Below the pieces are notes generated by a model, which was not told the DNA's origin, ran no database searches, and worked only from the letters and a program-made list of their open reading frames with translations. From Pseudidiomarina tainanensis (GTDB lineage: Bacteria > Pseudomonadota > Gammaproteobacteria > Enterobacterales > Alteromonadaceae): a stretch of DNA of 64,000 bases. The DNA lies in assembly GCF_004214835.1 (NCBI RefSeq), contig NZ_PIQJ01000003.1, positions 62,001 through 126,000 on the forward strand. The letters run 5' to 3'. This document shows, piece by piece, positions 2,835 to 20,698 of the stretch (its first letter is position 1; each line of letters opens with the position of its first letter). The position numbers were made by a program, and so were the translations under genes.

Positions 2835-4103
2835 ATGGATATTTTAAGCACATATAGCATGACATTGATCGTGCTTGCTGCGGTATTTGGTTTATTTATG
2901 GCGTGGGGTATTGGTGCGAATGACGTTGCCAACGCCATGGGAACCTCAGTCGGTTCTAAGGCCTTGACCATTAAGCAAGCCATTATTGTTGCAATGATTT
3001 TCGAGTTTGCCGGTGCGTATTTGGCGGGTGGCGAAGTCACCTCAACGATTCGCAAAGGCATTATCGAATCAGCCTATTTCGTTGACACACCAGAGTTACT
3101 CGTATTTGGTATGATCGGCTCTTTGTTGGCCGCAGGAACTTGGTTGCTAATCGCTTCTTGGGCCGGTTGGCCGGTATCAACAACCCATTCAATCATTGGT
3201 GCCATTGTTGGCTTCTCAGCCGTTGGTGTTGGGGTTGAATCGGTGAACTGGAGTTCAGTTGTCGGTATTATTGGTAGTTGGGTTATTACACCAATGATTG
3301 CCGGTATCATTGCCTACTTTGTATTTTTAAGTGCACAAAAGCTTATTTTTGATAGCGAAAACCCATTAAACATGGCGAAACGTTATGTCCCATTCTATAT
3401 GGCATTAACGGGCTTCATGATCTCTTTGGTGACGATCAAGAAGGGCTTGAAGCATGTTGGCATTGAGCTGACTAGTTTCGAAGGATACTCGCTAGCTATC
3501 GGTATTGCAGTCGTTGTCGGCGTGTTAGGTAAGATTCTAATTTCGCGTTTGAAATTTGATCCAGCTGCCGACAAAAACATGCACTACACCAACGTTGAAA
3601 AAGTATTCGCCATTTTGATGATTGTTACAGCTTGTGCCATGGCATTTGCGCATGGTTCAAACGACGTTGCCAATGCGATCGGTCCACTAGCTGCGGTTGT
3701 TAGCGTGGTCGAAAGTGGCGGTGAAATCGCTTCAAAAGCAAAACTAGCATGGTGGGTTCTCCCGGTTGGTGCATTTGGTATTGTGCTCGGTTTGGCCATG
3801 CTTGGCCGTCGCGTTATTGCAACAATCGGTAAAGGAATTACACACTTAACGCCAAGCCGTGGTTTCGCGGCTGAATTGGCTGCTGCAACAACGGTTGTTA
3901 TCGCATCTGGTACAGGCTTACCAATTTCAACTACACAAACATTAGTTGGTGCTGTCTTGGGTGTTGGTATGGCGCGCGGTATTGCCGCGTTGAACCTCGG
4001 CGTTGTGCGTAATATCGTCGTGTCATGGGTCGTGACATTGCCGGCCGGCGCTATCATGTCGATTATTTTCTTCTTCATTATTAAGGCAGCCTTTGGCGCT
4101 TAA
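2835..4103 (+). CDS. Inorganic phosphate transporter, Pit family
   Basis: This 422-residue polytopic membrane protein moves phosphate, usually as a metal-phosphate complex, using the proton or sodium gradient. Both copies of the Pit signature are present: GIGANDVANAMGTSVGS at about residue 26 and GSNDVANAIGPLAAV at about residue 275. This is the internal duplication expected of the family. About ten hydrophobic segments can be seen. It is the second gene of an operon with the DUF47 protein. Two strong hairpin-T-run terminators follow. Confidence 0.95.
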   Translation: MDILSTYSMTLIVLAAVFGLFMAWGIGANDVANAMGTSVGSKALTIKQAIIVAMIFEFAGAYLAGGEVTSTIRKGIIESAYFVDTPELLVFGMIGSLLAAGTWLLIASWAGWPVSTTHSIIGAIVGFSAVGVGVESVNWSSVVGIIGSWVITPMIAGIIAYFVFLSAQKLIFDSENPLNMAKRYVPFYMALTGFMISLVTIKKGLKHVGIELTSFEGYSLAIGIAVVVGVLGKILISRLKFDPAADKNMHYTNVEKVFAILMIVTACAMAFAHGSNDVANAIGPLAAVVSVVESGGEIASKAKLAWWVLPVGAFGIVLGLAMLGRRVIATIGKGITHLTPSRGFAAELAAATTVVIASGTGLPISTTQTLVGAVLGVGMARGIAALNLGVVRNIVVSWVVTLPAGAIMSIIFFFIIKAAFGA

Positions 4104-4116
4104 TGACTGAAGAAAT

Positions 4117-5430: not shown

Positions 5431-7174
<1,744 letters not shown>

Positions 7175-19389: not shown

Positions 19390-19932
19390 TTATTCTTGGT
19401 CATTATCTGCATAGCCACTGCCAATGGCGCTAAAGGGCAGATCAAGCCCAAGCTCAGGTACTTGGAGACCAATCCATGCTGGGAAGGTATTGCTATTGGG
19501 CCCTGGCACAGCTTCATACTCATTCGCCCATGGGTAGCGCTCTGCAGCCGCAATAATCTGCGGAATAAGCTCACCAGCTTTATTGCCTACCATTGATAGT
19601 ACTTTTTCTGGCTTAGCACCATACCAGTAACGATCGGGCGTTGCTGTTTGATAGCTATATAGCGCTGGCTGGCCGCGATTCACCCTCCAACCCACCACTT
19701 CATACACGGTGTATTCTTTTGCATTCGCTGGTTTCACGGCAATCCACGTGTGCACAGCGAACCATCCGCGCCAACCAAAGGCATCGGCGGCATAAACCTC
19801 AATAACCGGCTGCGTTTCAGTTACCGGATTAGCGGCGATACCGGCTGGCTCACGCGAAGCTGTACGCCAATCTCCTGACGAACAACCAATGAGCAGAGCG
19901 GTTAATAAAGTAACGACAAGTGTTCTGAACAT
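19390..19932 (-). CDS. DUF3750 family lipoprotein
   Basis: A 180-residue predicted lipoprotein (LLTALLIGCSSGDW lipobox). The mature domain contains FGWRGWFAVHTWIAVKPANAKEYTVYEVVGWR, EYEAVPGPNSNTFPAWI and a closing FSAIGSGYADN, the conserved pattern of DUF3750. The PGPNSNTF segment with His and Cys/Ser-like residues suggests a papain-like or transglutaminase-like fold, but no enzymatic role is proven. Start at 19932 follows GAGA at good spacing. Its promoter overlaps the terminator of the small Fur-box gene upstream. Confidence 0.8.
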   Translation of the reverse strand: MFRTLVVTLLTALLIGCSSGDWRTASREPAGIAANPVTETQPVIEVYAADAFGWRGWFAVHTWIAVKPANAKEYTVYEVVGWRVNRGQPALYSYQTATPDRYWYGAKPEKVLSMVGNKAGELIPQIIAAAERYPWANEYEAVPGPNSNTFPAWIGLQVPELGLDLPFSAIGSGYADNDQE

Positions 19933-19951
19933 AATGATCTCTTTTAAAAAC

Positions 19952-19986
19952 AAAAAGCCCGTGAATTTGTATCACAGGCTTTTTGT
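19952..19986 (-). terminator. Terminator of the Fur-controlled small gene
   Basis: Read on the minus strand, AAAAAGCCTGTGA and TCACGGGCTTTTT pair (one G-T) around a 7-nt loop and end in a T run. It lies about 45 nt after the stop of the 34-residue ORF. The stem-loop itself contains the -10 box of the DUF3750 gene. Confidence 0.8.
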
Positions 19987-19993
19987 ACGTCAA
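19966..19993 (-). promoter_or_regulatory. Sigma-70 promoter of the DUF3750 gene, inside a terminator
   Basis: On the minus strand: TTGACG (19993-19988), 16 bp, then TACAAA (19971-19966) preceded by TG-A, an extended -10. The -10 forms the loop of the terminator hairpin. The predicted start near 19959 gives a 26-nt leader with a ribosome-binding site. Confidence 0.55.
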
Positions 19994-20028
19994 CTTGAGA
20001 CAGATAGATTACTCAAAGGTACGCGGCT

Positions 20029-20133
20029 TTAATACGCAACTAAAAGCACACTGGCAGCAACTAAAAGTAAATTAAATAATAGCGGCAATGCCATTAATAC
20101 AAATAAAGTTAGTTTAATTTTCGTGCGTTGCAT
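20029..20133 (-). CDS. 34-residue hydrophobic peptide under a Fur-box promoter
   Basis: This very short ORF translates to MQRTKIKLTLFVLM, then ALPLLFNLLLVAA and SVLLVAY, ending in TAA. It has a positively charged start (R3, K5, K7) followed by one continuous hydrophobic helix of about 26 residues, as in single-pass small membrane proteins with the N-terminus inside. GGGGGA lies 7 nt before the ATG. A promoter with ideal geometry and a Fur box in its spacer lies 28 nt upstream, and a strong terminator follows, so the transcript is about 200 nt and monocistronic. I know no family for it. The alternative is a Fur-regulated small RNA without a translated product. Confidence 0.6.
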   Translation of the reverse strand: MQRTKIKLTLFVLMALPLLFNLLLVAASVLLVAY

Positions 20134-20160
20134 AAAGAAATCCCCCACAAACTGAATTGC

Positions 20161-20189
20161 ATATTAATGAGAATGGTTCTCATTTGCAA
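20161..20189 (-). promoter_or_regulatory. Fur-box promoter
   Basis: On the minus strand: TTGCAA (20189-20184), 17 bp, TATA-type TAATAT (20166-20161). The palindrome AATGAGAATGGTTCTCATT at 20166-20184 fills the spacer; it matches the Fur consensus inverted repeat (AATGA-AAT-x-TT-TCATT). Fur with iron would block polymerase. Longer arms ACAAACT (20147-20153) and AGTTTGT (20189-20195) flank it. Confidence 0.75.
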
Positions 20190-20206
20190 GTTTGTGAGGG
20201 TGTTCT

Positions 20207-20698
20207 TTATTTAAATTTTGCTTCAATAGACTGATGAAGTTGTTTCTTACCGCCAAGCATAAAAACAACTTCCGCGACAACAAACAATGGACCGATAGCA
20301 AGCCCCATAATGTCATCGACAAATGCGGGCTTACGGCCCTCAAAATAGTGGCCAACAAACTGAAAAATCCAGCCGACGACAAATAACCCGATACCCCAGG
20401 CTAACCACAAAGAAGTCTCAAGCATCGCAACTTGGCTACCTAACCATACGGCTAGCCCGAGTAGCAAAGTCATTAAAATCCCTAAAGCGACATCGAGTTT
20501 GAGGTAAAACAACGCTGCAATCGCACTCACAATAATGGCGGGTGAGAGCATAAAGTCAGCGATAAACCAGGTGGGGCGTGATAATAAAATTTCGATTGCG
20601 ATAACAATCAAAGGAATGCCAACTAAATGCGTCATGATATTGCGACGATCACGATGGTATGCAGCATATCCGGCTAAATGTTCTGTAATTGTTTTCAT
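20207..20698 (-). CDS. Mpo1-like (DUF962) membrane protein
   Basis: A 163-residue protein with four to five hydrophobic helices, beginning YAAYHRDRRNIMTHLVGIPLI and later FVGHYFEGRKPAFVDD. The spaced histidines (YHRDxRN, THLVGIP, GHxxFEGRKPA) are the conserved set of the DUF962/Mpo1 family, whose yeast member is an iron(II)-dependent dioxygenase acting on 2-hydroxy fatty acids. The bacterial substrate is not established. It ends just upstream of the Fur-box promoter, on the same strand. Confidence 0.88.
   Translation of the reverse strand: MKTITEHLAGYAAYHRDRRNIMTHLVGIPLIVIAIEILLSRPTWFIADFMLSPAIIVSAIAALFYLKLDVALGILMTLLLGLAVWLGSQVAMLETSLWLAWGIGLFVVGWIFQFVGHYFEGRKPAFVDDIMGLAIGPLFVVAEVVFMLGGKKQLHQSIEAKFK

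Follow-up and report, generated by a model that had tools for sequence, protein, structure and literature searches.

The Escherichia coli small protein MntS reportedly derives from an export signal and has a function of its own. FbpA, FbpB and FbpC of Bacillus subtilis are small basic proteins of the Fur regulon that work with the small RNA FsrA, RyhB-type small RNAs are short transcripts under Fur, and MgtS and MgrB respond to stimuli that differ from the iron starvation considered here. MntS plays a part in manganese and iron balance, according to an excerpt of the published work (PMC4361602), and MgtS, MgrB and similar small membrane proteins are described, likewise in an excerpt, as acting on larger membrane proteins (PMC11539335).

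Here, we analyzed a 34-codon gene in the window, that is, the whole 64 kb stretch of DNA under study. The best explanation as a whole, to which we assign a probability of about 0.6, is that the gene encodes an orphaned peroxidase anchor that is controlled by Fur, acts with a membrane partner and is insulated from upstream transcription in the window species. Among the literature matches listed on Pseudidiomarina/Idiomarina, on Fur-regulated small proteins and on signal-peptide-derived small proteins, the excerpts contained nothing on this gene, and the excerpts of those listed on MauG/TonB/Fur operons made no mention of it.

The gene, its promoter and its product

The features of the locus are given below, with G000 denoting the genome of the window, G025 that of P. 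woesei and G004 that of P. donghaiensis.

20207..20698, minus strand: Mpo1-like gene, directly upstream (PF06127, 5.1e-22)
20184..20189, minus strand: -35-like hexamer TTGCAA, read in the sequence; same letters in G013, G025 and G004
20166..20184, both strands: 19-bp Fur-box palindrome in the promoter spacer, kept in G013, G025 and G004
20161..20166, minus strand: -10-like hexamer TAATAT; TAATAT in G013, TAGACT in G025, TAGGCT in G004
20141..20146, minus strand: GGGGGA, Shine-Dalgarno-like; GGGGG present too in G013, G025 and G004
20029..20133, minus strand: 34-codon ORF (P0001), single-helix membrane peptide by frame, selection, hydropathy and AlphaFold
~19951..19985, minus strand: hairpin resembling a terminator, with A/T pairs at the base, not common to relatives and absent from the scanner list
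19390..19932, minus strand: DUF3750 gene, downstream past the hairpin (PF12570, 5.2e-46)

A sequence-only reading of the window had described TTGCAA-N17-TAATAT on the minus strand at 20189-20161, with a palindrome filling the spacer and GGGGGA before an ATG. All three elements were recovered: the hexamers are separated by 17 nt (ATGAGAACCATTCTCAT, minus strand), this spacer forms the central part of a 19-bp Fur-type palindrome that shares one base with each hexamer (ends at 20184 and 20166), and GGGGGA is present at 20146-20141. A consensus scanner did not list a promoter at 20189-20161, the hexamers having, by our count, 8/12 matches at a cut-off of 9. The Fur pattern TGAGAAYNRTTCTCA has a single match at ≤2 mismatches in the 64 kb window, with 0 mismatches (0.73 expected at ≤2), and in the whole genome this site is the sole 0-mismatch match, with 28 sites at ≤2 mismatches compared to 10 for a reversed-pattern control; these counts are biased towards this site because the pattern was derived from it. 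A test of the putative Fur-box promoter that does not depend on this choice comes from three other genomes, in which both promoter and frame are conserved.

Across 394 genomes of the order, the composite TTGCAA/Fur-box promoter occurs at ≤2 mismatches in 25 genomes (28 sites), so that the promoter architecture itself is not peculiar to this gene; 27 of these sites lie in genomes other than the window's, ORFs were listed after 16 of them, and none resembles the peptide. In two genomes from another family of the order (L126 and L132), the gene after the composite promoter encodes a hydrophobic protein of 63-69 residues; by eye these are unrelated to the peptide and represent other Fur-box small membrane proteins.

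Fur itself is encoded in the window's genome (PF01475, 6.2e-46). Fur-type sites with 1 mismatch precede DUF2788-flavodoxin-fur, a solute-binding protein (SBP_bac by Pfam, of the ferric-iron kind by our reading) and a DUF6746 protein, and one with 2 mismatches precedes a TonB receptor and the PepSY_TM protein that follows it; several other two-mismatch sites examined lie within or close to unrelated genes. Because similar boxes precede other genes in this genome, Fur control of the site is likely rather than proven, and we infer that the peptide gene is controlled by iron. At eight loci of the genus (L052, L057, L059, L063, L065, L067, L071 and L078), a Fur-type box directly precedes the gene for a DUF6746-like protein whose start is signal-like (the Pfam assignment was made in the window's genome only), which suggests that the DUF6746 family is part of the Fur regulon.

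The product of the 34-codon ORF, MQRTKIKLTLFVLMALPLLFNLLLVAASVLLVAY, reaches a hydropathy maximum of 2.52 at residues 8-26, and AlphaFold run without an alignment predicts one helix at residues 3-33 (mean pLDDT 90.8), in agreement with the sequence-only description of the frame (20133-20029) as a single hydrophobic helix with a basic start. That reading had also named a conserved frame with synonymous changes as the mark of a protein, and the substitutions do follow the reading frame. Between G000 and G013, 17.5/25.7 synonymous and 11.5/76.3 non-synonymous sites differ (pS 0.68, pN 0.15, p=7e-7), between G000 and G025 15.5/25.5 and 20.5/76.5 (pS 0.61, pN 0.27, p=0.0015), and between G013 and G025 19.2/25.8 and 24.8/76.2 (pS 0.74, pN 0.33, p=0.0004), these being Fisher tests on rounded counts for pairs that share branches and are thus non-independent. 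G004 and G025 have the same coding sequence, even though identity over the 8.6 kb around it is 92%. This pattern indicates that the ORF is under purifying selection and evolves as a protein and, with a selected frame and one hydrophobic helix, P0001 is classed as a small single-pass membrane protein. The preferred sequence-only reading, an iron-regulated small membrane protein, thereby gains support, since promoter, box, Shine-Dalgarno region and frame are common to 4/26 genus genomes, and the lack of conservation of promoter or ORF in relatives that it had named as its refutation was not observed. We consider that the sequence evidence identifies a real, conserved small membrane protein gene that is probably iron-repressed. 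P0001 had no match at E≤1 in Pfam, one NCBIfam match (E 0.13) far under its cut-off and no match in plasmids (tblastn); in viral contigs, 83 stretches fit a pattern and 0 were confirmed.

DNA similarity among the solo loci runs from the promoter through the stop codon and then ends. The intrinsic terminator of the sequence-only reading was found as a hairpin at ~19985-19951 (CAAAAAGCCTGTGA-loop-TCACGGGCTTTTTG), though the consensus scanner did not report a terminator there; the T run lies within the stem. This bears on an explanation by a Fur-regulated small RNA or dual-function RNA, with the ORF incidental or secondary. The predicted transcript is short, self-contained and ends in a hairpin, and the 207-nt RNA folds better than its shuffles (z -3.31), mainly, we think, due to the terminal hairpin; the coding substitution pattern, the end of similarity at the stop codon, the unshared hairpin and the Rfam search (four matches at E≤1, all far under their gathering scores) oppose this explanation, which is thus highly improbable. 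The purely regulatory RNA that the sequence-only reading had offered as an alternative did not hold up either and is unlikely because conservation does not extend past the stop codon and the hairpin has no counterpart in relatives; it is the frame, rather than the RNA as in the RyhB type, that was found conserved. A role as leader peptide for the downstream gene was ruled out because the adjacent downstream gene points the other way in G013, G025 and G004.

Occurrence of the solo gene and the inverted repeat at its promoter

Of 26 genus genomes, four (G000, G013, G025 and G004) have the solo gene together with its promoter, at two sites, and G002 carries a longer solo version at a third site. 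In a DNA search of the 26 genomes at E≤0.01, 6/26 matched, four of them with the module; the G017 match corresponds to an operon promoter described below and the G011 match (L006, E 0.002) is by eye unrelated. The G013 copy lies at the same place as the window's, after the Mpo1-like gene, and inspection by eye of the stretch after this gene in 25 genomes located the solo gene in G000 and G013 only. In G025 and G004 it lies between YcaO and LiaF-like genes, a site that is empty in their sister G020. By eye, the empty site (L179 ~5550-5600, compared to L162 ~3900-4110) looks like the outcome of recombination at a TAAT repeat: the copy may have been deleted between TAAT repeats in G020, or its insertion in G004/G025 may have duplicated TAAT.

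Protein searches gave a similarly narrow distribution. Among 147 family genomes, 16 matched at E≤1, and only G000, G013 and G025 did so significantly (E 6.2e-8 or better, the next being 0.113); G004 is missing from these matches, presumably being outside that sample. Named genomes yielded 3 loci, two being the solo genes of P. woesei and P. donghaiensis and the third (L076) the C-terminus of a transporter-like protein, judged a chance match. Because G006 (no match) and G020 (E 0.46 only), which are nested among carriers in the tree, seem to be without it, the peptide is apparently dispensable. This patchy presence, without a significant match in G006 and G020, would suit a decaying, non-functional remnant, as would the circumstance that peptide function is inferred and none is known; pN is well under pS in all three comparisons and promoter, box and GGGGG are kept, which leaves such decay with very little probability.

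Two arms of an inverted repeat flank the promoter, a feature on which the sequence-only reading was silent.

20189..20210, both strands: upstream arm of the 22-nt inverted repeat, overlapping the Mpo1-like stop codon
20132..20153, both strands: downstream arm of the 22-nt inverted repeat, containing the Shine-Dalgarno region and reaching the start codon

The 22-nt arms are 86% complementary, with a repeat score of 11 in G000 and 14 in G013 (0/2000 shuffles each) and of 4 in G025 and G004 (p ~0.4). The carriers of the repeat, G000 and G013, are those with a same-strand gene immediately upstream; the upstream gene in G025 and G004 is opposite in direction. In the promoter transcript of G000 (folded with a start assumed near 20153), the Shine-Dalgarno region has a predicted unpaired probability of 0.50, compared to 0.17 in read-through RNA; the corresponding values for G013 are 0.20 and 0.00. 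For G025/G004, the promoter transcript gives 0.32 and a longer RNA 0.86. This comparison covers two contexts only. These predictions suggest a model in which, in the window species, read-through RNA from the Mpo1-like gene would fold via the inverted repeat and bury the start region, so that the peptide would be made mainly from its own promoter. Even in the promoter transcript, the G013 Shine-Dalgarno region is largely paired (0.20 unpaired), which counts against insulation, and the inverted repeat could just as well serve to terminate the Mpo1-like transcript.

A related peroxidase anchor in a Fur-box operon

A profile built from the three distinct solo peptides only matched 14/26 genus genomes at E≤10. 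Beyond the four carriers, the matches were G017 (1.8e-8), G011 (1.9e-7), G003 (1.5e-5) and G002 (7.6e-4), all remaining ones being 0.247 or worse. In G017, G011 and G003, the match begins at residue 1 of a 366-387-residue peroxidase, which in G017 is CCP_MauG by Pfam (1e-36) and has TIGR04039 (MbnH) as its nearest NCBIfam model at 149.5 bits, compared to a cut-off of 362.85. Two CxxCH haem motifs are present in each of five peroxidase orthologues and absent from the peptide. Judged by this similarity, the peptide is a homologue of the anchor with which a MauG/MbnH-like di-haem peroxidase begins. The sequence-only reading was made without sight of this match between peptide and Fur-operon peroxidase.

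The peroxidase is the last gene of an operon, after a lipoprotein and a TonB receptor, in 3/26 genus genomes (G017, G011 and G003).

L157:1694-8148; L158:2020-8579; L159:2708-9234: Fur-box operon encoding an Ig/cadherin-like lipoprotein, a TonB-receptor-like protein and an MbnH/MauG-like peroxidase

The start of the peroxidase gene overlaps the end of the gene for a ~890-residue protein, which we read as a TonB receptor, its only Pfam match in G017 being Plug, just under the cut-off. The lipoprotein-like gene before it has ~907 codons with Ig/cadherin-like domains and is preceded by a TTGCAA promoter with a Fur-type box (mismatches: 1 in G017, 2 in G003 and 3 in G011). In another family (L129), a by-eye similar lipoprotein follows the same promoter type. 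As indicated in an excerpt of PMC3621798, methanobactin operons have MbnH-type enzymes beside TonB transporters, and the abstract of that paper calls the role of these enzymes "a mystery".

Over residues 1-27, identity among the three peroxidases is 67-78%, compared to 31-56% for receptor and lipoprotein, the receptor start in G003 being our choice. Sequence-specific membrane contact would explain this conservation of the anchor, and overlap with the receptor gene alone may also raise that of the first residues. Conservation of the sequence beyond mere hydrophobicity and homology to an enzyme anchor both weigh against a type I toxin-like hydrophobic peptide (TisB-like) under Fur that acts on the membrane itself. 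The size, basic start, single helix and start-hiding hairpin resemble such genes; as to an antisense RNA partner, the other strand has one promoter-like site only, with 1.4 expected, which is chance level, and we regard a toxin as improbable.

An enlarged profile of seven rows, which included the fused sequences and G002 so that these match by construction, matched 24/395 family genomes at E≤0.02, namely the eight above and 16 others. The latter, all outside the genus (E 0.0058-0.019), were judged to be chance matches, ~8 being expected at E≤0.02, after 15 of the 16 (L191 excepted) had been read; besides the eight, nothing in the 395 genomes fell below 0.0057. The peroxidase family itself is widespread (112/395 family genomes at E≤1e-30). 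We read 27 of its N-termini, two being those of G009 and G023, whose orthologues gave no score with the anchor profile, and the 25 outside the genus differ by eye from the anchor and are mostly ordinary signal peptides (L225 seems partial).

Peroxidase orthologues (E<1e-90) occur in 5/26 genus genomes (G017, G011, G003, G023 and G009) and solo peptides in five others (G000, G013, G004, G025 and G002), no genome having both; this non-overlap is consistent with replacement but no proof of it, because chance alone accounts for it at 0.31. The window's genome has a distant peroxidase match only (E 4.8e-24, the sole match at E≤1e-5). The peroxidase-like gene concerned (L171, G000:C1, 175999-176718) has upstream of it a TGAGAATTCGTTCTCA palindrome that exceeds the usual Fur core by one base. 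Near the solo genes no remnant of the receptor, lipoprotein or peroxidase body was found, and a receptor-end remnant before the solo start codons is not recognisable (p=0.99). Leader similarity between solo genes and operon has a mean score of 15.7, reached by 0/500 shuffles, with control leaders equally high at 15.5; the resemblance to the operon is only suggestive.

Direction of descent and comparison with known systems

A 25-genome tree of two neighbouring proteins, in which several deep supports are low, places G002 among the species with a fused gene and the other four solo carriers in a second clade. The G002 ORF lies in an open frame of 88 codons that follows a Fur-type box (2 mismatches), and it is 69% identical to the peroxidase over 39 aligned residues, linker included; it looks truncated because the peroxidase linker is retained. 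The gene beside it (L160:4167-5813) encodes dual-specificity phosphatase and diacylglycerol-kinase/YegS-like domains in one protein. Descent by truncation is thus supported by sequence for G002 and, for the window's clade, it is our preference over fusion.

The opposite order, in which a free peptide is older and was captured as the peroxidase N-terminus in an ancestor of G017, G011 and G003, the window copy being no relic, fits the presence of the anchor-type N-terminus in only 3/5 genus peroxidase orthologues. It also fits the absence of anchor-profile matches from any other genus among the 395 family genomes, of which 112 have a related peroxidase, and the different appearance by eye of the 25 N-termini outside the genus. 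Since the solo ORF of G002, with its linker and among fused-gene species, shows the reverse direction there, we consider an older peptide unlikely, while giving it real weight.

In the mechanism favored here, that of an anchor orphaned by truncation, iron-loaded Fur would sit on the promoter spacer and keep the gene off, and iron starvation would release it. The product would be a 34-residue single-pass inner-membrane protein from a free-standing gene, in which R3, K5 and K7 together with the helix at ~8-30 would direct N-in/C-out insertion, no cleavage region being obvious. A Fur promoter and the anchor would have outlasted the loss of the lipoprotein, the TonB receptor and the catalytic body. 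Since solo and fused settings alike show conservation of the helix sequence, we propose a specific membrane partner for the helix, perhaps the one that once held the peroxidase, and the peptide may modulate iron uptake or periplasmic redox chemistry in starvation, as MntS does for manganese.

For many small membrane proteins, no origin or partner is known. The present peptide has a likely parent in the peroxidase anchor and a likely regulator in Fur, and a single genus offers solo, fused and empty relatives for contrast, which makes both origin and function of a small metal-response protein testable. The case also points to the operon of Fur-box lipoprotein, TonB receptor and MbnH-like peroxidase.

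Compared to the systems described above, the peptide resembles FbpA/FbpB/FbpC as a small protein of a Fur regulon and differs from them as a membrane helix, and it differs from RyhB-type small RNAs in that the conserved unit is a reading frame. With the MauG/MbnH-like di-haem peroxidase (PF03150; TIGR04039 under cut-off) it shares homology of residues 1-34 to the N-terminus in three species, and it is without the haem motif and catalytic body of that enzyme. Like MntS, it would be a small protein induced in a metal response, and the sequences point to the MntS type of relationship, in which a small protein is homologous to the N-terminal part of a larger, exported one that has the same kind of metal-regulator site. 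We tentatively suggest, at rather less than even odds, that the anchor was freed at least two times in one genus and kept as a Fur-driven regulatory peptide, a second MntS-like case, with the hairpin added in the window's lineage; if true, this would suggest that metal-regulated export genes repeatedly give rise to small membrane regulators. In contrast to MntS, however, sequence, metal and regulator are others, the relative is a peroxidase anchor, and solo forms are found at three sites in five genomes.
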